Source: Halovivax gelatinilyticus (GTDB taxonomy: Archaea > Halobacteriota > Halobacteria > Halobacteriales > Natrialbaceae). Taken from it: DNA of 64,000 nt. The translations under genes were made by a program, and so were the position numbers. The DNA is taken from the NCBI RefSeq assembly GCF_024300625.1, contig NZ_CP101322.1, positions 2,493,992 through 2,557,991 on the forward strand, written 5' to 3'. Below the pieces are notes generated by a model that saw only the letters and a list, made by a program, of their open reading frames with translations, did not search any database and was not told the DNA's origin. The first letter of the stretch is position 1; the number at the start of each line of letters is the position of its first letter. Shown piece after piece: positions 21,860 to 60,041 of the stretch.

Positions 21860-22440
21860 GGTCGACCGTTTCTAGTTATGCATGACTGAATTAGTTGAAA
21901 AACAAATACGTACATCGTTTGATTTCTCGAAAGACTCGTTCGACGCTATTTCGTTCACCGTGTCTTTCGTATGTGAACGAGAGTTTGTGACGTTGACAGG
22001 CGTATTGAAGCGAATAATCACCGTCGATGAGGCTGAATCTCTCATCGACGTCGTATTTTTCTCGAAGGTCTGCGAAGAATGTACTCACAATCACCTTGTT
22101 TCTGGTCGGTACGAGCGTTGTATACAACAATTCATTTTTAATGCGTATCGACCGCAGCGTACAGCCAGTATCGTTCACCGTTGAGTTGGATCACCGTTTC
22201 GTTGACCGCGACGTGATCCTGATATAGCCCTAATTGTCGGTGTCATTCTACCTTGTGAACCAGTTTGAACCGTCGATAGAGCCCGGTGAATGCTGAATAC
22301 GTCGAGAATCGAGACCGTGTTTGCGAGCCTGAGACCAGTCAGATTACGTTGAATGCCGAGTAATAATCAGTTGTGGAGTTGCTTCGCGCTCCACAAAATC
22401 CAGGTCAACTGGCCGATACTACCAGCAAAGTGGTCGGTTC
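21860..22440 (-). pseudogene. Decayed IS6-family transposase remnant
   Basis: On the minus strand, shifting frames recover typical haloarchaeal IS6 transposase segments in order: DLDFVERE (about 22410), LGIQRNLTGLRLANTVSILD (about 22360-22300), DHVAVNETVIQLNGERYWLY (about 22220-22160), NELLYTTLVPTRNKVIVSTF, then RHGERNSVERVFREIKR and FSHA near 21870. At least two frameshifts and internal stops break it, so it is old. The 95-residue open piece at 21891-22178 is only a fragment, and the opposite-strand frame is a shadow. Confidence 0.82.
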
Positions 22441-22532
22441 CTGCTATTATACTCGAAACCGCTACCGCCTCACTCCTTCAAAATCCTATTTGATCACCGC
22501 CATTCCAACGGACGAAAACAGCTTTTATAGAT

Positions 22533-22928
22533 TTATAACCGACCAAGTCTGGAGCGAATCAACCGGGGCACCCCAGTCTCAAAGTGTGCATATTTGCTGG
22601 CGAGGTATACCAGCAGAACCATACTAGTAAACACTCCATATGCATTTGCCTCTAACAGTCTGAGCGACATATCCAGTATTAGAGCCAACATTCCCAACGC
22701 CCAAGCCCATGTTTGTAGCAACCAAAGTCCGTATACTATACCGAATATGATCAAACAAAACACCAGATATCCCACTCCAAGCACAATATTGTTCCCTTCG
22801 CCGGCGAGAAGGAGAAGAACTGCGTTATATAGGATCCACCCACCACCTATGATGAAGAGTATGCAAAGCAATTTGATCCCGAGCGGTGTTTTTACGGGTT
22901 GGGTTGGTGAGATGCTTGTGTATGTCAT
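22533..22928 (-). CDS. Small four-helix membrane protein, island gene
   Basis: A 131-residue protein with about four hydrophobic segments: IKLLCILFIIGGGWILYNAV, NNIVLGVGYLVFCLIIFGIV, TWAWALGMLALILDMSLRLL and VFTSMVLLVYLASKYAH. It starts 15 bases after the stop of the exported cysteine-rich protein on the same strand, so the two are almost certainly co-transcribed. Codon use is AT-richer than in the rest of the window. It could be an immunity, anchoring or export partner for the upstream product. No family recognised. Confidence 0.75.
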   Translation of the reverse strand: MTYTSISPTQPVKTPLGIKLLCILFIIGGGWILYNAVLLLLAGEGNNIVLGVGYLVFCLIIFGIVYGLWLLQTWAWALGMLALILDMSLRLLEANAYGVFTSMVLLVYLASKYAHFETGVPRLIRSRLGRL

Positions 22929-22943
22929 GTAAATATCAAAAAA

Positions 22944-24026
22944 CTATATTCTAATATATGTTGCTGTGTCGTCCGAGTGGTGATCTTGTGGTGCTATGGG
23001 GTATTTCGAAGGGTTCTTTCGGATTTCACCAAACTCAACCCGCTGTAATCCTTTGTTGTTCAGTTGAGATTCCGTCATTGAAATGTAGTCCTCTGGATTG
23101 TTGTTCGGTGCCTGCACAGTTAACGAGGTGTTCGTCCCCCAATTACCTTCGAGTCCTCCTTCTGTGACATTAACTGTTACCGTTTGCCCTGGATCCATCT
23201 GTTGCAAACTGACACGTGCCCAAGTTGAGAACTCACCACCGATATTAAGGTCATAATTAAAATTAATAGACGTGCCATGACCAGGATCATTTGTAAGCAT
23301 ATTATGCATACTGCCGAGATATTCACCAGTATCCACTCCAGCACCTAAAAACGGCACCCAACCAAGAATGTATTCCGCTGTTCTACCAGCGACATTGGAT
23401 ACGTCGTAGTTCTGATATTGCGTCAGATCCTCAGTAGCGCCAACCCAGTCTTCTTCGTCATAGATATTGGTGTAGGTATATAGGTCTGCTGGCTCCGGTC
23501 CGATGGACGCAGTAGTGCTATACTCCGTTAGCCACGTCCCCGGATCACCAGTATCTTCATGAACCATCGATACCCCACTATGGATTATGAAATCAACCGC
23601 CCAGTGCGGTGATTGCCCTTCTATCGGATACCAGCCATAATTCCACGCGAGCAGTGTTCCTACGTTGACTTCGTATCGATTCCCGGCCAAGAACTCACTC
23701 CTTGTCATACTATCCATATCGACGAGTGGAGATTCGTAACAACATTCTCTCGTGTACCACCCATCATATTGACAGTTCCCTTCATCCCAGCACGCGTCAA
23801 CGGTGTTGACTTCAGAATCTTCTCTAAATTCCATCTTCGTCGGACAGAAAGGGTCGTTGTATTCCCATTGACCGCATTCAGTGGAAGATTCTTCGCGGAT
23901 AAATTGTTGTGAGTTTGTTTCGGAGGCGGTAACCATTCCAATGATTCCAATAGCAACTCCGCTCGAAGCGACCGAGTTAAGTACGGCTCGTCTACTGGGA
24001 GACTGCTGGAAATTTTTACCCTCCAT
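22944..24026 (-). CDS. Tat-exported cysteine-rich protein, unknown function (island gene)
   Basis: A 360-residue protein. Residues 11-35 form a twin-arginine signal (SRRAVLNSVASSGVAIGIIG). All six cysteines fall in residues 51-96 (C51, C61, C79, C85, C95, C96), just after the leader, which suggests a disulfide-bonded domain, unusual in haloarchaea. The remainder is rich in Trp, Tyr, Asn and Thr and looks like a beta-rich surface domain; residues about 210-240 (AEYILGWVPFLGAGVDTGEY) are weakly hydrophobic. A TATA-like ttttatc (about 24047) lies about 25 bases before the start. AT-rich codon use and flanking insertion-sequence remains point to horizontal transfer. I know no family for it. Confidence 0.78.
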   Translation of the reverse strand: MEGKNFQQSPSRRAVLNSVASSGVAIGIIGMVTASETNSQQFIREESSTECGQWEYNDPFCPTKMEFREDSEVNTVDACWDEGNCQYDGWYTRECCYESPLVDMDSMTRSEFLAGNRYEVNVGTLLAWNYGWYPIEGQSPHWAVDFIIHSGVSMVHEDTGDPGTWLTEYSTTASIGPEPADLYTYTNIYDEEDWVGATEDLTQYQNYDVSNVAGRTAEYILGWVPFLGAGVDTGEYLGSMHNMLTNDPGHGTSINFNYDLNIGGEFSTWARVSLQQMDPGQTVTVNVTEGGLEGNWGTNTSLTVQAPNNNPEDYISMTESQLNNKGLQRVEFGEIRKNPSKYPIAPQDHHSDDTATYIRI

Positions 24027-46241: not shown

Positions 46242-48638
46242 TCACCCGCCGAACGCCGACAGCGACGTTGTCTCCGTATCGGCGAGGTACCGTCGAATTC
46301 GCGCGCGGTCCCACCCGAGCGGCGAGACGACGCTCTCGGCCGCCCGAATCAAGAGCGTCGCGTAGTAGTCCGAATCGTACGCTACTCCGCCGTCCTCGAG
46401 CGCGAGCCTGACTCGCTCGCGCGTCCGTCGTGCACCGTCGTCGACAACGACGTACGCGACCGACTGGCCCGGCTTGCGGGAAACCCCGAGTTCGTCGTAC
46501 CGCTCGAGGGCGGCGACCGTATGGGTCGCCTGTGTGTACTCGCCCAGCGACTTCGAAACGCGCTTCGTAATCACGAGGTCGACCGGATCGACGCTCCCGC
46601 GTTCGAGTTCGCCGATGTGCCGTTGCAGGCGGTCGCAGACGACAGCGGGGTCGCGCGCGTCGTCGAGCGTCTCGATGAACTCACGCTGACAGTCGGAGAC
46701 GTACGTCGGCGTCGATCGCTGGCGCACCTCGATACCCCGGTACTTGTACGTCCCGTCCTCGCGTTTGCCGAAGTACCGGGTGAGCGCGCCGGCGAGGGCG
46801 GACGAGGGAACCGTTCGCTCGTCCGTCGTCGCGTTCGCGGCGATCGACGACCGGCGCGGGACGAAACAGACCCACTCGTAGGCGCCGTCGTGTTCGAGCG
46901 GGATTCCCACGCTCGCCGACACGTCCGCACACACCGTCTTAAGCGGCTCCGGGTCGTCGACGGCCGCCGTCACCCAGAGGCTGTCGACGATACCGTGGAC
47001 GATCCGCCACCCGCCGGCTTCGAGTCGCTCCTTTGCGGTCAATGCGATGTCGCGCGCGTAGTCGTTGATCGCCTCGTGGCACTCGATGCGACCGAACTTG
47101 GCGTTTCGATACCCCTGGTAGCCGAAACACGAGACCAGCACCCACTTGATCGCGCCGGATTCGCCGCGCCACCGACGTCGTTCGGCGTCGGAGGGGTCGT
47201 CCTCGCGAAGCGCTCGCTTCAGGTTGGCTCGGTCGTCGAGCAGACCCTCGAGCACGTCGGGCAGGAATCCCTCCCGACGGCAGATTCGGTAGTCGAGTCC
47301 CGGGGTCCGGTCTCGCGGCGTTCCGTCGGCGCCCGGGCGACAGCACGCACAATCGACCGTCTCCGGGCTCACGTTGTGCTCGCAGATGATCCGCGGATAG
47401 AGCGACGCGAAGTCGATCTCGTGGACGGTCTCGTGAAAGCCGACCTCGGGTGCGAACGTGAACCCGCCGCGGTCGGCTTCGTGAAGCGTCCGCGCGTCTT
47501 TGAACCGCTCGGGCTCCCACTTGTTCCAGGGGGCCAGCACGTCCCACTCTCGGGCCTGCCGAATCTGGCGCGACGTGAGTATCGTTCCGATGCTCCCCCA
47601 CGCCGCCTCCTGGAGTGGTCGTCCACTCTCTTGGACCATATACAGCAACCCGGACAGCCCGGACTGGTGCCAGAGAAAGCTGTTCGACTCGTCGACGATC
47701 GCTCGCCCGGGAACCCGGTAGCGCGCCGGCGAGTGGCCGATCTGACCGTAACTCGCGTACGTGTTTTCCCCGGCGACGCGGGACCACCCCGCCAGCCGAC
47801 CCAGTTCGAACGAATCGAGTCCGTTCGCGTCGGCCGTCTCGGAAAGGAGCGGAACCAGGTCGGCGTGACTCAGTACGAGCACGTCCGGATCCGTTCGTTC
47901 GAGCCGTGAAGACAGCGTTTCGAGGACGCTCGCCGGTTTCCCCTCGATCGTTTCCCGCTCGACCGCTCCATCGTCGACCGTCCCGCTTCCGACCCGGAGC
48001 GTCGAGACGTCGCGGTTTGCCAGCGCTCGCTCGTCGATTTCGATGTGAAATCGTCGAAGCGCTCGGTTCGGCGCACTCGCGGCCGGATCGACCTCCCGAT
48101 CCAGGCAGTACCGAAATCCGGGTTCGAGGTCGACGTCGAACAGTCTGATCGTTCCGGGTGCCGGCGACCAATCCGGTGAGCCGGCGGTTGCTTCGACACC
48201 GGATGACCGACCGGTATCGAACGATCCGTCGGCTGCTGACCGCTCGCCGCCGACCGTCGCGTCGCGATCGAACGATCGGTGCGATCCCTGCGACGTTCGA
48301 TACGCGAGTTCCCTCGCGAGCGTTCGAACCTCGCCGATCCGCTCTATCGCCACTCGAAGCACCGGTTCTGGCGACGATCGACCTTTCGTATCGTGTAATG
48401 TGGTGTATCGATCGACGACGGCCGTCTCCGTTACCTTCGGATCCGCGGCGAGTTCGTTCGCGAGCCGGTCTAACGCCCGGTCGGGACCGGCGACGAACAC
48501 CGCCGGCTCGTAGGATTCGTCGACGATCGGAACCGCCCCCGTCTCGGTCAGTCGCCAGGCCCGGACAGCCCCGTCGGGGAACTCGAACGTGAACGGATCG
48601 GGTTCCGACTCGGTCGAATCGGAATCGGCTCGCGTCAC
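46242..48638 (-). CDS. polB2: Archaeal family B DNA polymerase PolB2 (mutasome component)
   Basis: A 798-residue family B polymerase of the archaeal PolB2 type. Motif A DFASLYPRII keeps its Asp409. Motif B KWVLVSCFGYQGYRNAKFG keeps Lys498 but has Val for the usual Asn. Motif C reads HGIVDSLWV: the first Asp of the usual DTD is Ile550, only Asp552 remains. The exonuclease DIE motif is also not canonical (FHIEIDER). PolB2 proteins were described as inactivated polymerases and later linked to translesion synthesis. The GTG start overlaps the upstream gene stop (GTGA), so it is the third gene of an operon with the PolB2 partner and RadA-like protein. Confidence 0.92.
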   Translation of the reverse strand: MTRADSDSTESEPDPFTFEFPDGAVRAWRLTETGAVPIVDESYEPAVFVAGPDRALDRLANELAADPKVTETAVVDRYTTLHDTKGRSSPEPVLRVAIERIGEVRTLARELAYRTSQGSHRSFDRDATVGGERSAADGSFDTGRSSGVEATAGSPDWSPAPGTIRLFDVDLEPGFRYCLDREVDPAASAPNRALRRFHIEIDERALANRDVSTLRVGSGTVDDGAVERETIEGKPASVLETLSSRLERTDPDVLVLSHADLVPLLSETADANGLDSFELGRLAGWSRVAGENTYASYGQIGHSPARYRVPGRAIVDESNSFLWHQSGLSGLLYMVQESGRPLQEAAWGSIGTILTSRQIRQAREWDVLAPWNKWEPERFKDARTLHEADRGGFTFAPEVGFHETVHEIDFASLYPRIICEHNVSPETVDCACCRPGADGTPRDRTPGLDYRICRREGFLPDVLEGLLDDRANLKRALREDDPSDAERRRWRGESGAIKWVLVSCFGYQGYRNAKFGRIECHEAINDYARDIALTAKERLEAGGWRIVHGIVDSLWVTAAVDDPEPLKTVCADVSASVGIPLEHDGAYEWVCFVPRRSSIAANATTDERTVPSSALAGALTRYFGKREDGTYKYRGIEVRQRSTPTYVSDCQREFIETLDDARDPAVVCDRLQRHIGELERGSVDPVDLVITKRVSKSLGEYTQATHTVAALERYDELGVSRKPGQSVAYVVVDDGARRTRERVRLALEDGGVAYDSDYYATLLIRAAESVVSPLGWDRARIRRYLADTETTSLSAFGG

Positions 48639-48943
48639 TCGTCACCCACCTCTCGACCGTCGCGATTGCAATCGGTTCCCGTCCGCTCGCCCGACTTGAG
48701 TTCGTCGATGCGCTCGTGGAGTCGACGGAGCTCGACCTCGTGTGCCAGTAGCAGCGACAGGTAGAACGCTCGCTCCGGAACCGGCGGGTTGGCGTATCCC
48801 GCCGCGTCCGCGTAGCCGCGCGCCCGGTCGAACAGTCGATCGAAGTCCGATTGATACTCCCGCCTGAGCGCCCGTCGCATCGGAGACCACTCCGATTCGA
48901 GCTGTCGGATCACGTCGCGATAGGTCGGGTTCGTTCGCCCCAT
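48635..48943 (-). CDS. Small PolB2-associated protein
   Basis: A 102-residue helical protein starting MGRTNPTYRDVIRQLESEWS, then MRRALRREYQSDFDRLFDRA and PPVPERAFYLSLLLAHEVEL. It lies between the RadA-like gene and polB2, sharing one base with the former and four with the latter. This matches the small partner (PPB2-type) in the archaeal mutasome gene cluster proposed by comparative genomics. Charged and alpha-helical, it probably bridges the other two proteins. Confidence 0.8.
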   Translation of the reverse strand: MGRTNPTYRDVIRQLESEWSPMRRALRREYQSDFDRLFDRARGYADAAGYANPPVPERAFYLSLLLAHEVELRRLHERIDELKSGERTGTDCNRDGREVGDE

Positions 48944-49647
48944 CAGGATCCCTCCGCGATCGCCGGTTCGAGCGGGCCGTCCGTCGGATCCCACGCGCGG
49001 GTGAGTTCTGGTTCGAGCAGCCCCTGATCGTGGGCGGCGACGACCGGATCGATCCCGTCGGCCGCGCCGCAGAGATCGACCCAGTAGGGAATCGTCGTCT
49101 GCCAGCCGGCGCAGTCCCAGTAGCCGACCTGTTCGACGCCGTCGCCGTCGAGCCTGACGCCCGCGCGCGTTCGACTGCACTCGATCGTGTGATCGGCGTG
49201 CGTCTCCAGTATCTCCGGCGGCTGCTCGCTCGTCGTGGCGAGAACCGGCACGTCGAGTGCGGTACCGAGTTCTCGGAGCGTCACGAGCGCCGATTCGCAC
49301 AGTCGTTCGCGTTCGTACGCCGCGAGGTCGTCGTCGCGATAGAGCGAGACGACGTTCGTCGCGACGATCAGCGCCGATCGCTCCGTCGCCCGACGGGCGA
49401 GCGTACGGACCAGCGAGTGATGCTGGTACGCGGTGAACGCGCGGGCGATGCGAAGCGTCGAGAGCGACCGCGGACTCGGCGCCCGGTCGTACAGCGCGCG
49501 GGTGCTCGCGGCGTTTCTCGCGTCGATCCAGTAGACCGGTCCGCGCCGATCGAGCAGCCTCGAACAGACGAGTTCCGGTACGATCGCCGATCGGGGCGTG
49601 GGCACCTGAAGCACCGTCACCCCGGATTCGTACTCGACGTGATGCAT
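48943..49647 (-). CDS. RadA/RecA-like protein of the mutasome (aRadC-type)
   Basis: A 234-residue RecA-fold protein lacking a clear Walker A loop. Recognisable parts are VTVLQVPTPRSAIVPELVCS, PVYWIDARNAASTRALYD, PRSLSTLRIARAFTAYQHHS and the Walker B-like SALIVATNVVSLYRDDDL. The pattern fits the short archaeal RadA paralogue found with PolB2. It may load or stimulate the polymerase on damaged DNA. First gene of the three-gene operon. Confidence 0.8.
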   Translation of the reverse strand: MHHVEYESGVTVLQVPTPRSAIVPELVCSRLLDRRGPVYWIDARNAASTRALYDRAPSPRSLSTLRIARAFTAYQHHSLVRTLARRATERSALIVATNVVSLYRDDDLAAYERERLCESALVTLRELGTALDVPVLATTSEQPPEILETHADHTIECSRTRAGVRLDGDGVEQVGYWDCAGWQTTIPYWVDLCGAADGIDPVVAAHDQGLLEPELTRAWDPTDGPLEPAIAEGS

Positions 49648-49994
49648 ACCCGATGGTCGCGCTCGCGGGGGTTAAGCGCGAGAGCCCCGTTTCCGGCATT
49701 TCCGATACGCGACGACGCTATCGTCGGCTCACTTCAGATCTCCACGCTGCGACGTCGACGACGCGTGCGAACGCTATCGAATACGTCGTCGTCCGCACGG
49801 TCCGGACGCGAACTCGCCCGATTTTGGGTCACTATCGGAAACCACTGTCCCGTTCGCGTCGCGGTCGACGGTGGCGATCGAACTATCGGACGAACGAGCC
49901 GATATCGGAACGTATCGGAAAATCGGCCGGGACCGTCTTCGATCCTAGCACAGCCGTGGGCCCGCGTGATCATTGAGCTGTGTCGGTCGGCGTA
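49648..49994. promoter_or_regulatory. Promoter region of the mutasome operon with repeated TATCGGAA motif
   Basis: No gene is seen in these 347 bases. The 8-mer TATCGGAA is present at 49833-49840, 49903-49910 and 49913-49920, and inverted at 49700-49707; a seven-base match lies at 49884-49890. Chance would predict far fewer than one copy. The motif may serve damage-responsive control of the operon or belong to a replication origin with the adjacent orc1. Confidence 0.6.
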
Positions 49995-51029
49995 CTACCG
50001 TCCGTCGACCGGTTTTGCGTCGGCGAGCGGTTCGACGACCCGATAGGTTCGTCCGCGGCGCTCGCCCGTGGCGGCGATCAGGTCGTAGTGGGCCATCTTG
50101 GTCAGGTAGTTACGAACCGTCCGGCGGGTCTTGGGGTTCTCGACGCGCGCTTCGTACGTCTCGTAGAGTTCGTTCGGTTCGATCTCGCCGCGCTCGTCGA
50201 TCACCTCGTACAGGGTTCGCTGGTGGTCGGGAAGGCCCTCGATCGTCTCACGTCGAATAGCGATTCGGGCGTCCGGAATCGCGTCGGCGAGGAGGTCGTC
50301 GGTGAGTCGGTCGTCGCCGCGACTGTGAGCGCGCTGGGCGGCCGACCGGAGAATGCCGATGGCGACGCGCGCGTCGCCGGCGGCGGCGTCGGCGATCGTC
50401 CGAAGCTGACTCTCGCCCACGACGTCCGGTTCGAGCCCCTGGCGGGCGCGCTCGTCCAGGATCGCGACGAGTTCGTCGCCGCCGTAGCGATCGAAGGTGA
50501 CGCGAGTTCCGGCTCGAAACCGGGATCTGACGCGGTCGTCGAACTGCGCGAAGAGTTCCTCCTCGCGGTTGGCGATCAGGACGAGCGAGACGTGTGGGAG
50601 CTGGTTCAGATCGTAGAGAACCTCGGTCTCCTCTAACTGGTCGACTTCGTCCAGGATGGCGACGATCGGTGCGTCGTCGGCGGCGCGCAGCCGACCGAAC
50701 AGTTCGTCCTTTGCGGTCGATCGGTGGACGTCGAACGCTCGCCCGACCGTTTCGAGGAGGTTGTAGAGAACGCGAAACCGGGTGTACTCCTGCCAGCAGT
50801 TGACGTACGCGACGCGAACTGACGGGAGCTGTTCGCCCAGTCGATGGAGGGTGTATCGGGCGATACAGGTCTTTCCGACGCCCGTCGGTCCGAACAAGAA
50901 CGCCGGGTCCGGTCGCCCGCCCGAGACCAGCGGTTCGACGGCTTCCGAGAGGCGATTCACCTCGTCATGGCGGTGGACCACTTCGCTGGGGACGAAGTCC
51001 TCAGAGAGGACCCGGTCGTCGACGATCAC
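49995..51029 (-). CDS. orc1: Orc1/Cdc6 replication initiator
   Basis: A 344-residue AAA+ initiator. Walker A FLFGPTGVGKTCIARYTL, Walker B PIVAILDEVDQLEE, sensor 1 VSLVLIANREEELF, and sensor 2 near GDARVAIGILRSAAQRAHSR are present. The C-terminal winged helix (LPDHQRTLYEVIDERGEIEP to KTRRTVRNYLTKMAHYDL) binds origin DNA. The GTG start at 51029 lies about 25 bases after a TATA-like cttaatatt (minus strand, 51051-51059), fitting a leaderless message. Haloarchaea have several orc genes; one lying beside repeats can mark an origin. Paralogue number cannot be assigned. Confidence 0.95.
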   Translation of the reverse strand: MIVDDRVLSEDFVPSEVVHRHDEVNRLSEAVEPLVSGGRPDPAFLFGPTGVGKTCIARYTLHRLGEQLPSVRVAYVNCWQEYTRFRVLYNLLETVGRAFDVHRSTAKDELFGRLRAADDAPIVAILDEVDQLEETEVLYDLNQLPHVSLVLIANREEELFAQFDDRVRSRFRAGTRVTFDRYGGDELVAILDERARQGLEPDVVGESQLRTIADAAAGDARVAIGILRSAAQRAHSRGDDRLTDDLLADAIPDARIAIRRETIEGLPDHQRTLYEVIDERGEIEPNELYETYEARVENPKTRRTVRNYLTKMAHYDLIAATGERRGRTYRVVEPLADAKPVDGR

Positions 51030-51352
51030 GTCGTTCGGTTCGTCGTCCAGAATATTAAGCGATCGTGACCGATTTCCGATTTTCCGAATCTCGTATCGAC
51101 GGTGAGTTCGCTCGCCCCGATCGACATCTGTCGCGCCTCTATTTATATACTAAACTCTATATCGCAATACGAAAGATTTCGGCGGAGCGGATCAGGTGGA
51201 CGGCGAATATCTGGGGTAGGGCGGTTGAGGGTCGAGATATCGGGCAAAACGGTTGTTCGGAACGACAGAGTCGGACGCCGCTGCTGCTCACTGTGGGTGG
51301 TCTGTGTAGATGTGAGACGGGTATCCGTTCACGCCGCCGACGAACGAGCCGG
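51030..51352. promoter_or_regulatory. orc1 upstream region, AT-rich, with inverted copy of flanking repeat
   Basis: Holds the orc1 promoter. The 12-mer ccgattttccga (51076-51087) is the reverse complement of TCGGAAAATCGG found at 49915-49926 on the other side of orc1. An AT-rich run (ctatttatatactaaactct, about 51138-51157) could be an unwinding element. Classic haloarchaeal origin boxes with G-strings were not found, so origin status is open. Confidence 0.5.
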
Positions 51353-56047: not shown

Positions 56048-56614
56048 GGCTGAGGGGTGGACGAACTGGTACATAAAGTCTGTACACCCTCCAATCGGGT
56101 CGTCCGTCGGTCGACGGAAGTAACGGGTTCGTACTCGGCGATCGGTCTCGACGCCGACGGATCTCGCCGACCCGCCCGCTCGAAAGCGCACCCTTTGGGG
56201 AAGTGACTCGCAGTTAAGGGGATGAGTGGCTGCCGGGAGACTGGTGAGGACTGCCGGGGGACGGGGGAGGACTGCCGGGGGACGGGGGAGGACTGCCGGG
56301 GGACGGGGGAGGACTGCCGGGGGACGGGGGAGGACTGCCGGGGGACGGGGGAGGACTACCGGGGGACGGGGGAGGACTACCGGGGGACGGGGGAGGACTA
56401 CCGGGGGACGGGTGAGGACTGCTGTTGCGACGCTCAGGGGTTCGCAGCTAGACGGGTGCGTAGGCGTCCGGTGGGTATGTGAGACACGCTGGGTCCGGTA
56501 CCAATTCAGCCGCTCGTCACGTTCGAACTGACTGTCGTCGACGGTCGACGGTCTGGTTGGGCAGGAGGTAGGAACAGCATTATTACGTACTGTGTACAAT
56601 GGTAGCATGGGTCA
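56048..56614. other. Intergenic region dominated by a minisatellite
   Basis: Contains the promoter of DUF1328, the 21-bp tandem array (56225-56421) and the promoter of the zinc-finger gene at 56615. Frames crossing the array on either strand (an EDCRGTG repeat on plus, a proline-rich LPRPPAV repeat on minus) have no supporting features. Confidence 0.6.
56225..56421. repeat. 21-bp tandem repeat (minisatellite), eight near-perfect copies
   Basis: Unit gaggactgccgggggacggg plus one g repeats exactly from 56246 to 56413: five copies with tgcc then three with tacc, the last with one end change. A degenerate copy (56225-56245) and a partial copy (56414-56421) flank it. Purine-rich on one strand with runs of five G. 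The block order of variants suggests unit duplication. Not CRISPR, because there are no unique spacers. Confidence 0.95.
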
Positions 56615-56919: not shown

Positions 56920-58017
56920 ATGAGTACGCCCACGCCCGAGGTATACGAACAGGGCAAGGGGATGGACGCCCACAACCAGGTGATGCGCGAGATCCGCTCG
57001 CGCAAGGAGGCGAGCTACGATCCCCACGAACCCACGCGCGTCTGGCTCGACGAGGACAACACGCCGGACGGCGTAATGCGGAGTCTGACGATCATCTTAA
57101 ACACCGGCGGCTGTCGCTGGGCCCGCGCCGGCGGCTGTACGATGTGTGGCTACGTCGCAGAGAGCGTCGACGGCGGCAGCGTCGGTCACGACGCGCTGAT
57201 GGATCAGATTCAGGTCTGTCTCGATCACGAAGCGGACAACGCCGACGAACCCGCCGATCTCATCAAGATCTACACCTCCGGGTCGTTCTTGGACGAGCGC
57301 GAAGTCGGCGCGGAGACGCGCGCGGCGATCGGCGAGACGTTCGCCGATCGCGAGCGGATGGTCGTCGAATCGCTGCCGGACTTCGTCGACCGCGAGAAGA
57401 TCGCCGACTTCACCCGACACGGCCTCGATACCGACGTCGCCATCGGTCTGGAGACGGCGACCGACCGAGTCCGTCACGACTGCGTGAACAAGTACTTCGA
57501 CTTCGCCGACTTCGAAGCGGCGTGTGCGGAGGCCGCCGCCGCTGATGCAGAGACGGACGACGCAGCCGCCGGAATCAAAGCCTACCTCCTGATGAAGCCG
57601 CCGTTTCTCGCAGAGTCCGAGGCCGTCTCCGACATGATCGCCTCGATCGAGCGCTGCGCGGCCGTCGAGGGCTGTCACACGGTCTCGATGAATCCCTGCA
57701 ACGTCCAGCGCTACACGATGGTTGACGAACTCTACTTCAACGACGGCTACCGCCCGCCGTGGCTCTGGTCGGTCGCCCACGTCCTCGAGGAAACCGCCGA
57801 GATCGACGCGATCGTCGTCTCCGATCCGGTCGGTCACGGCTCCGATCGCGGCCCCCACAACTGCAAGGAGTGTGACGACCTCGTCCAGAAGGCGATCAAG
57901 GACTTCAACCTCCGACAGGATCCGTCGGTCTTCTCGCAGGTCTCGTGTGACTGCGAAGCGACCTGGGAGACGGTGATGGAACTCGAGACGAGTTACAACA
58001 TGCCGCTGGTTCGGTGA
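56920..58017 (+). CDS. Archaeosine biosynthesis radical SAM protein RaSEA
   Basis: A 365-residue radical SAM enzyme. The cluster motif is in ILNTGGCRWARAGGCTMCGY (Cys-x7-Cys-x2-Cys); downstream are KIYTSGSFLDEREVG, VAIGLETATDRVRHDCVNKY and LMKPPFLAESEAVSDMIASI, as in the Elp3-like RaSEA group. It splits the lysine adduct made by ArcS on preQ0-tRNA to give archaeosine. Start at 56920 (MSTPTPEVYEQGKG); the longer frame covers the zinc-finger gene in another frame. With tgtA and arcS the window holds the three late archaeosine genes. Confidence 0.92.
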   Translation: MSTPTPEVYEQGKGMDAHNQVMREIRSRKEASYDPHEPTRVWLDEDNTPDGVMRSLTIILNTGGCRWARAGGCTMCGYVAESVDGGSVGHDALMDQIQVCLDHEADNADEPADLIKIYTSGSFLDEREVGAETRAAIGETFADRERMVVESLPDFVDREKIADFTRHGLDTDVAIGLETATDRVRHDCVNKYFDFADFEAACAEAAAADAETDDAAAGIKAYLLMKPPFLAESEAVSDMIASIERCAAVEGCHTVSMNPCNVQRYTMVDELYFNDGYRPPWLWSVAHVLEETAEIDAIVVSDPVGHGSDRGPHNCKECDDLVQKAIKDFNLRQDPSVFSQVSCDCEATWETVMELETSYNMPLVR

Positions 58018-58144
58018 GTAGGCACCGTAGTCCGAACCTCGTCCGTCGTAAATGACTTTCGGGAACCGGCGATCGTCACTACTCAGTTCTTATCTCTGTG
58101 GGACATCAATACCGTTAATACGTGGTGGATATTATTGGATTTAG

Positions 58145-58576
58145 ATGCCTGGGGCGAATACGAAGTCGGAACACTCTGGTCAAACGACGAGTGAAGTTTA
58201 TCGAACCGTCGCTTTTGCGAGCGTTACCATCGCGCTAATTGGGCTACTCGGTGGCGCGGCAACCGGCTATTTCCTTTCAGGAGCGGTCGTCTATGTTGCA
58301 GGCATGTGGATCGCCGTCGGCGTTGCACTTTTCGAGTGGCGTTCATCCCAAGGTGATGGTGCGGATGGGCCTCACGAAGTCGCGTTCGAACGGGCTAGTT
58401 ACTGGACGGTCGTGACGATACTCGTGGTGACCGCAACGCTGTTCCCGCCAGTAACTCTCCTAGCGGCCGGAGATTGGATCGGTACTGTCCCTGGATTCCG
58501 TTTCATTTTGCTTACACAGTCTACACTCATCCTCTTTTTTACTGTACTCTACGTAATATTCCGAGTGGAAACGTAG
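58145..58576 (+). CDS. Four-helix membrane protein
   Basis: A 143-residue protein with about four hydrophobic segments: VAFASVTIALIGLLGGAATG, GAVVYVAGMWIAVGVALFEW, YWTVVTILVVTATLFPPVTL and ILLTQSTLILFFTVLYVIFR. It starts 127 bases after RaSEA and converges on the Tat-exported gene at 59568-58657, with 80 bases between stops. Codon use is AT-richer than neighbours. No family recognised. Confidence 0.7.
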   Translation: MPGANTKSEHSGQTTSEVYRTVAFASVTIALIGLLGGAATGYFLSGAVVYVAGMWIAVGVALFEWRSSQGDGADGPHEVAFERASYWTVVTILVVTATLFPPVTLLAAGDWIGTVPGFRFILLTQSTLILFFTVLYVIFRVET

Positions 58577-58656
58577 ACATCTGGATACTCGGCATCGTAT
58601 CGACAGGACGAATGCCGATTGAAAAAACGGTGATGATCAGCAGCGACCGAAACTGC

Positions 58657-59568
58657 TCAGGCTCCTTGGATTGTGATGTTCTCGTAGTTGATGCCCCATT
58701 GACCGACATCGTGTTCCATATCTACGCTCGCTTGTGCCAGACCCAAGGCACCAATAGCACACCCCGACGTCAGGATGAAACGGTGGGTGTGATCCGGATC
58801 AACGTTCTGCAGGGTAATCTGTTCGCTGAAGCTTTGATCCCGATCGTGGCTGAAGTTCCCTGAATCTTCGAAGTTTACGAATGAACCGGAATCGACGATT
58901 CGCGATGTCGGGTCAGTTTCGCTCTCTTCTACTCGGTCAATCGCGTATCCGAGATCGTAGCTCGCACCGGACCCGCTGAGTGCTACGAGGAGACCGCTAA
59001 CGCCGGCCCCGGCGCCGATTGCAACGACGACTGGCGGCGCTTGCGGTTCAAACTCGTCTCCGTCGACGTAAGTACGCGTGGATGTTCCTGATGTTTTGGC
59101 GACCGGTTCTGTCGCCGCGTCATCACGTGTTTCTTCCTCGAAAGGGTTTATGCTCCTTCCGGACGCCTCGACTTTGAGATCAAAGTCAAGGGATATCTCG
59201 ACTTCGTCGACATCGTTTGCAATGTCGAAATACTGCCACGCTGCAGCTGCCCGGACTGTTTCACTGCGGAACATTCTTCCCCCTGTGTAGAGGTTCACGC
59301 GTTTGCCGGTGTCGCCGACGATGGCTGTCGTATTGCCACCACCGGATTCGGCGATCGTGTATCCGTGGAAATTGTGGTAGCTGACCGCTCCACTCTGACC
59401 GACCTCGCGGATCTGATTTCCGCCCGAGTTAACCGATGCGGGGAATTCGAATTCGGCTAGCCCGCCACTATTGGGGTCTGGGCTGGCAGATCCAGTTCCA
59501 AAACTCGATGCACCTAAGACGCCAACAGTGCTTAATGCGGCGCCCTTCGTGAATGTTCTTCGATCCAT
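58657..59568 (-). CDS. Tat-exported protein, unknown function
   Basis: A 303-residue protein starting MDRRTFTKGAALSTVGVLGA, a twin-arginine leader ending near SASP. The mature part is Gly/Ser/Asn-rich and beta-like (AEFEFPASVNSGGNQIREVG, SYHNFHGYTIAESGGGNTTA). Residues about 175-200 (PPVVVAIGAGAGVSGLLVAL) are hydrophobic and could insert in or cross a membrane. It ends WGINYENITIQGA. Codon use is less GC-rich than the chromosome average. Convergent with the small membrane protein at 58145. Unknown. Confidence 0.72.
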   Translation of the reverse strand: MDRRTFTKGAALSTVGVLGASSFGTGSASPDPNSGGLAEFEFPASVNSGGNQIREVGQSGAVSYHNFHGYTIAESGGGNTTAIVGDTGKRVNLYTGGRMFRSETVRAAAAWQYFDIANDVDEVEISLDFDLKVEASGRSINPFEEETRDDAATEPVAKTSGTSTRTYVDGDEFEPQAPPVVVAIGAGAGVSGLLVALSGSGASYDLGYAIDRVEESETDPTSRIVDSGSFVNFEDSGNFSHDRDQSFSEQITLQNVDPDHTHRFILTSGCAIGALGLAQASVDMEHDVGQWGINYENITIQGA

Positions 59569-59765
59569 GCTGCATTAAAACCGGCCAACCCAAACAGCAA
59601 TAAACTTTGCTAATTTCCATACGTTATAAATAGTTTAACAAATTTGGATATGTGTGGTCTTGGGCGATGGTTTCTTAAGATCGGGGCGGAATTTGCCCAG
59701 AAACATTACGCGGAGTGGATCGACAGTGTGACGAATGAAGCCCTATCGGCGATCCGATGTCCTCT

Positions 59766-59930
59766 TCACGACGGGTGCTGGTGTTTGAGTCGCTCGCCAA
59801 CCATCCCCGGGACCGGCGTCAGGCAGTCTTTGCACTTCCAGGTCGGGTAGATTCCCGTCTCTTCTTTCTCGATGTCCTGGCGATACCGGAGCGTCGCACC
59901 GCACTGACAGCGATAGGTCGATCCGGTCAT
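59766..59930 (-). CDS. Small zinc-binding protein (54 aa)
   Basis: The minus-strand ATG at 59930 opens MTGSTYRCQCGATLRYRQDI, continues to WKCKDCLTPVPG and ends KHQHPS before TGA. Four cysteines (C8, C10, C33, C36) in CxC and CxxC pairs, with late histidines, give a probable zinc ribbon. The frame is intact and of native composition. Function unknown. Opposite frames at this site are shadows. Confidence 0.72.
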   Translation of the reverse strand: MTGSTYRCQCGATLRYRQDIEKEETGIYPTWKCKDCLTPVPGMVGERLKHQHPS

Positions 59931-60041
59931 TGGTGACGCTGAGTCCGTCCAGCCCGATAACGCTCACGCCAGTCGTGGCTCGATCCGTGGGAGAGACCTG
60001 ATACCACGAAACACTGTCTCTCCGGGAGCACAGACCACCAG

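Follow-up and report, generated by a model that had tools for sequence, protein, structure and literature searches.

What does a cluster of short repeats do beside an orc gene and an operon for a RadA-like protein and a PolB2-type DNA polymerase? The original prediction for this locus of Halovivax gelatinilyticus offered two answers, a replication origin with lineage-specific binding boxes or a shared damage-response site. We analysed the whole stretch of 64,000 nucleotides (the window) together with related genomes. Our preferred reading, with a probability of about 0.7, is that the repeats contain an activator site responding to DNA damage, for which the linked Orc paralogue is the most likely binding protein.

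The orc and PolB2 locus and its repeats

The locus comprises four genes:

49995..51029, minus strand: orc, the candidate regulator, a 344-residue Orc1/Cdc6-family AAA+ protein with a C-terminal winged helix (TIGR02928, 193 bits; Cdc6_lid; structure model)
48943..49647, minus strand: RadA-like mutasome protein of 234 residues, named from the original prediction, gene order and the PolB2 literature
48635..48943, minus strand: conserved mutasome protein of 102 residues, with a homologue in 41 of 41 loci examined
46242..48638, minus strand: PolB2-type family B DNA polymerase of 798 residues (PF00136; NF004418, 816 bits)

This is the arrangement of a PolB2 mutasome operon, with a RadA-like gene, a gene for a small protein and polB2, adjoined by orc; the RadA-like assignment is by name and position, and the 234-residue protein had no match in Pfam or NCBIfam. 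Close relatives keep the order and strand of all four genes, the exceptions being loci where orc is absent or elsewhere. The predicted structure of Orc (pLDDT 83.6) has the full Orc1 fold with a winged helix (H302-314 plus wing), in which R303, R306, K311, H314 and Y315 are invariant, and its best Foldseek matches include the complexes 2qby and 2v1u of Orc1 with origin DNA. The polymerase (46242-48638) has HGIVDSLW where YGDTDS would be expected, a placement made by eye that fits the altered motif C of PolB2 proteins. Elsewhere in the window, a 21-bp tandem repeat within an ORF (56230-56415) encodes a Pro-rich repeat, and two low-GC stretches, 22001-24000 (0.466) and 58001-60000 (0.541), against 0.64 for the window, are possibly acquired DNA.

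The four exact TATCGGAA copies reported near the RadA-like/PolB2 operon were all found (49700-49707 on the minus strand; 49833-49840, 49903-49910 and 49913-49920 on the plus strand), as was the seven-base match TATCGGA at ~49885. They are the only exact copies in the window, where 1.65 are expected, and at least four occurred in 8 of 100 window shuffles. With 88 copies in the 3.70 Mb genome, the 8-mer is rare, but it does also occur outside the orc/mutasome locus. The cluster is unusual (four of the 88 copies in 221 bp, scan probability ~2e-6), yet because this probability becomes 0.065 once multiplied by all 8-mers, and because TCGGAA on its own shows no excess in the window (56 against 68 expected), the 8-mer by itself is weak, suggestive evidence. 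The longer TCGGAAAATCGG is present at 49915-49926 (plus strand) and 51076-51087 (minus strand).

After reading the promoters of relatives, we dropped TATCGGAA as the conserved unit and replaced it by a tandem pair of NCGGAA half-sites. The original prediction had overlooked that the copy at 49700 is one half of such a tandem (49691-49705) and the copy at 51082 one half of another (51074-51087). A pair flanking orc, as had been proposed, is too simple a description of these two units, each of which lies in a minus-strand promoter of its own.

A tandem promoter element with fixed geometry

The conserved unit is NCGGAA-N2..3-NCGGAA, followed after 14 nt by a TATA-like YTTA and then, after ~26 nt, by the start codon. 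It precedes both orc (51056-51087, minus strand) and the RadA-like/PolB2 operon (49673-49705, minus strand). The elements of the window are:

51074..51087, minus strand: orc tandem box TCGGAA-AA-TCGGAA, located in the sequence and present in relatives
51082-51087 and 51074-51079, minus strand: its half-sites, both TCGGAA, from the sequence
51056..51059, minus strand: orc TATA-like CTTA(AT), 14 nt downstream of the tandem box
51029, minus strand: orc start codon GTG
49905..49920, plus strand: distal pair TCGGAA-CGTA-TCGGAA, opposite in orientation to the promoter units, with no TATA box at 14 nt
49833..49840, plus strand: single distal TATCGGAA, an exact match
49691..49705, minus strand: tandem box TCGGAA-ATG-CCGGAA of the RadA-like/PolB2 operon, located in the sequence and at the same place in relatives
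49700-49705 and 49691-49696, minus strand: its half-sites TCGGAA and CCGGAA, from the sequence
49673..49676, minus strand: mutasome TATA-like CTTA(AC), 14 nt downstream of the tandem box and 25 nt before the start codon
49647, minus strand: start codon ATG of the RadA-like gene

The conserved part of the cluster consists of the two promoter-proximal tandem units. The plus-strand copies at 49833, 49903 and 49913 point in the opposite direction, and no TATA box lies at the proper distance from them; a distal upstream pair, mostly with 12-bp spacing, is also seen in several relatives. We regard these three copies as additional distal sites, which may still be due to chance. Upstream of the orc box is an AT-rich stretch (51140-51185), which in relatives reads roughly ATAAAYCNNATANNNCGATANNRAA; similar stretches occur in some Natrialba, which are without the tandem box.

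For comparison, we fetched the loci of PolB2 homologues from relatives by protein homology. In a 6-mer count over 14 upstream regions, TCGGAA ranked first, with occurrences in all 14; the core motif, whose absence from orthologous orc and polB2 loci had been named as a check, is found there. The pattern TCGGAA-N2..4-NCGGAA-N13..15-YTTA, searched in 61 Natrialbaceae genomes, yielded 58 sites spread over 29 of them. The distance from box to YTTA was exactly 14 nt in 56 of the 58, though 13-15 were permitted, and moving the TATA window to 9-11 nt or to 17-19 nt left three and four sites, respectively, one of the latter being an orc site seen again. A reversed-pattern control gave no sites, but its dinucleotides differ, and we relied on the spacing controls instead. 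Across all collected loci, some of which had been fetched using the pattern itself, 81 of 143 distinct tandem pairs had a TATA-like box at 14 nt, one at 13 and none at 15. Five of six other hexamers gave nothing at 13-15 in the same test, and the sixth, the natural variant CTGGAA, gave 2 of 9. At 61 mutasome loci fetched by homology, the strict unit occurred in 23 (shuffled mean 0.0) and a relaxed form in 24 (shuffled mean 0.005).

The idea that the 8-mer cluster arose by chance can draw on the unenriched TCGGAA and on the shuffles that reached four copies. Set against a position, spacing and choice of genes conserved over 61 genomes, with spacing controls, it has hardly any plausibility left, and for the two promoter-proximal pairs we consider it refuted.

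The targets are few. The first gene downstream of the 58 sites belonged to the orc family in 27 cases and was RadA-like in 18, a provirus-type integrase in five, the 102-residue gene in two and another gene in six. The genome of the window has three sites, at orc, at the mutasome and at the integrase operon of an SNJ2-like element. Three genomes showed further peculiarities. One genome (G008; L144, L145) has orphan homologues of the 102-residue protein, each behind a tandem box of its own; another (G038; L142, L143) has two orc copies, 63% identical to that of the window, with the box within the duplicated stretch and a second box-like site; and upstream of a RadA-like gene in a third (L066, G096), CRISPR-like repeats GTTTCAGACGAACCTGTGAGGGATTGAAGC lie beside a partial orc-like match near the mutasome.

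In favour of an origin with lineage-specific Orc boxes, repeats lie near an orc gene, Orc proteins bind repeats, and the cumulative GC skew passes through a local minimum at about 50 kb. Over the window and 20 sampled stretches of 20 kb, however, the skew is noisy and uninformative. Canonical ORB-type repeats, GAAACGGAGGGG, flank a different Orc1 gene of the same genome (L197), and at the orc gene of the window we found no adjoining ORB repeats with a G-string, in agreement with the earlier failure to find the classic haloarchaeal origin box there. The tandem repeats are, moreover, locked 14 nt from a TATA box at many loci, some of them without orc. The proximal half-site does continue as GGAAACGG in many promoters, resembling the GAAACGG of the oriC1 ORB, but the tandem box differs from the ORB in having neither the G-string nor an inverted ORB pair and in its fixed relation to TATA. 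On the ORB search and the promoter geometry we rejected the origin reading, which we now hold to be very improbable.

The Orc family, the damage response and proviruses

Judged from the sequences, the tandem site follows the Orc family of the window across genomes and unlinked loci. An Orc with ~70% identity or more is found in 28 of 100 relatives, and many more-distant Orcs (45-56%) have a tandem or a single box, of the form TCGGAA, CCGGAA or CTGGAA, ahead of TATA. All 24 mutasome loci with the relaxed pattern lie in genomes that have an Orc of at least 40% identity. The box is present at orc in six genomes in which no PolB2 homologue of the window's group was detected (G014, G023, G031, G039, G045, G051), and in G025 it is present at both orc and the mutasome although the two are unlinked. 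The three other orc paralogues of the window's genome have no box (0/3). A tree built from 69 Orc rows (44 tandem, 4 single, 21 none) shows clustering of the tandem label, which requires 7 changes against 20.6 when shuffled, with several losses, notably in Natrialba.

The association has exceptions. As the box is lacking at several orc genes within this clade (Natrialba, G018, G028, G049, G009, G055), autoregulation is not universal, and among the 23 mutasome loci whose genomes have a close Orc, 7 do not show the pattern. In G009, the orc promoter lacks the box while the mutasome has an ACGGAA variant, so covariation at unlinked loci is not seen there; in G095, an Orc relative has a CTGGAA tandem, yet both mutasomes have the UV box described below.

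Based on these promoters, we propose two upstream activating sites, each beside the BRE/TATA of a weak and presumably leaderless promoter, one serving orc and the other the RadA-like/102-residue/PolB2 operon. The NCGGAA half-sites are 8-9 bp apart, about one helical turn, which would place two DNA-binding units on roughly the same side of the helix and 14 nt from TATA, where they may bind cooperatively. Upon DNA damage, a regulator, for which the winged-helix Orc paralogue of the adjacent gene is the most likely candidate, would bind the pair and help TFB and TBP to assemble, thereby activating, rather than repressing, its own transcription and that of the mutasome. Some proviruses would have taken over the same box for their integrase operons.

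A damage-response activator site could also be read by a different factor, either another transcription factor or a TFB variant recognizing an extended BRE, with orc merely among the regulated genes. The box does abut the BRE/TATA region, binding by Orc is itself a prediction, and some orc genes of the clade have no box. Against this reading, box and Orc family go together from genome to genome and at unlinked loci, and Orc has a predicted winged helix and, by analogy, a precedent as regulator in Sulfolobus; we judge it unlikely.

A known element bears on the link to damage. In Halobacterium, the UV-B-induced box TTTCACTTTCA is described as preceding radA1, top6B and other genes (Boubriak et al. 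2008, PMC2556686), and the same sequence lies upstream of radA in the genome of the window (G000:C1:1315707-1315741, plus strand, L228), a location conserved in many haloarchaea. An order-wide survey with a related pattern, in which genes were named from their own sequences, found UV boxes also at radA, RPA, top6B and threonine-deaminase-like genes of other haloarchaea. Like the CGGAA element, the UV-B box is repeated in tandem and precedes TATA at damage-response genes; it differs in sequence, and the two never share a mutasome promoter (0/61). Mutasome promoters carry either the tandem or, at 7 of 61 loci (4 of these 7 in genomes with an Orc of at least 40% identity), the core ACTTTCAC of the UV box before TATA; by these patterns 30 of 61 have neither, among them some loci where the box is single or decayed or the start is uncertain. 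The mutasome promoter of the window does not contain the 11-mer TTTCACTTTCA. The proposal of a shared damage-response site is supported in two ways, by the tandem with fixed TATA spacing at orthologous orc and RadA-like/PolB2 promoters and by the published UV-B box that stands in its place in some other lineages.

The third site of the window's genome (2218044) heads an operon ending in an integrase gene, whose product shares 59-60% identity with the integrase of the temperate pleolipovirus SNJ2. It belongs to an SNJ2-like integrated element (G000:C1:2212000-2226000, L148) with a match to gp1 (60%), a gp9 homologue upstream (41%) and weak matches to gp13 and gp14. An integrase operon behind such a box is present in all five Halovivax genomes (G000-G004; the G004 integrase was named from sequence), and G041 has one more. 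SNJ2 and five other integrase-bearing haloviruses had no box with TATA, HHPV4 had two loose matches to the relaxed pattern, and a scan of viral contigs with the N3 box gave three matches, all to one AT-rich unrelated sequence, and so lends no support. The UV box occurs in viruses: SNJ1, described as mitomycin-inducible (PMC12642351), has TTTCACTTTCA (L336, 2903), followed by TTTTAAG 19 nt past the second TTTC, and Halfgib1 (L339, 3789) has the core ACTTTCAC with a downstream TATA-like box. These may be damage-inducible viral promoters.

Comparison with known systems

The closest parallel is the damage regulator Orc1-2 of Sulfolobus, an Orc paralogue whose reported binding motif, A(N)TTTC, lies upstream of BRE/TATA and occurs in the Orc1-2 promoter as well (PMC9738581, PMC5817253). 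The orc of the window likewise encodes an Orc1/Cdc6-family AAA+ protein with a winged helix, and its own promoter has the tandem box upstream of BRE/TATA, so that both systems combine an Orc1-family winged-helix protein with a hexanucleotide box at its own gene; the damage-response role is that of Sulfolobus Orc1-2 and is proposed for the haloarchaeal Orc by analogy. A further likeness to the Sulfolobus element, the DDRE, is that the second half-site in haloarchaea frequently has the sequence N(C/G)TTTCGGAA, with the same orientation. Unlike the DDRE, the haloarchaeal box is a tandem with a period of 8-9 bp, 14 nt from TATA, and its core is CGGAA, not A(N)TTTC: TTTC precedes the core in only part of the promoters, and neither box of the window has A(N)TTTC. 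The haloarchaeal target set is also far smaller than the Orc1-2 regulon, and the likeness stops short of demonstrated orthology to Orc1-2.

The enrichment of orc1/cdc6 beside archaeal polB2, with a possible link to damage regulation, has been published (PMC11791011), but the available main text of that study names no promoter element and does not contain the word 'promoter'. The available text on the Halobacterium UV-B box (PMC2556686) likewise gives no binding factor. Open-licence papers, at the level of titles and abstracts, yielded no description of a TCGGAA box in haloarchaea, and in one of them the string occurred in primers only; a prior report outside this literature is possible. Open-licence papers on Orc and DNA damage in haloarchaea did not appear to describe the box either.

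Euryarchaeal DNA-damage regulation is poorly known, with the Halobacterium UV box published without its binding factor, and our analysis supplies a sharply defined cis element of fixed geometry, an adjacent candidate regulator and a short, testable list of targets. If our reading is true, it would extend the role of Orc as a transcription factor from Sulfolobus to haloarchaea.

In the bacterial LexA/SOS regulon, a single box governs the regulator, an error-prone polymerase and genes of proviruses. We tentatively suggest, at somewhat less than even odds, that haloarchaea have an SOS-like circuit in which a dedicated Orc paralogue reads the tandem CGGAA box and controls itself and the mutagenic PolB2 operon, in which the tandem took the place of an older UV box, TTTCACTTTCA, at the mutasome of some lineages, and which SNJ2-like proviruses tap to tie integration or excision to DNA damage in the host. 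The likeness to SOS is that regulator, error-prone polymerase and provirus genes again lie behind one box; the differences are that Orc is unrelated to LexA and that its site, lying upstream of TATA, is predicted to activate and not to repress. Were this circuit to exist, it would suggest that archaeal proviruses exploit the damage signals of their hosts, as lambda does with SOS.
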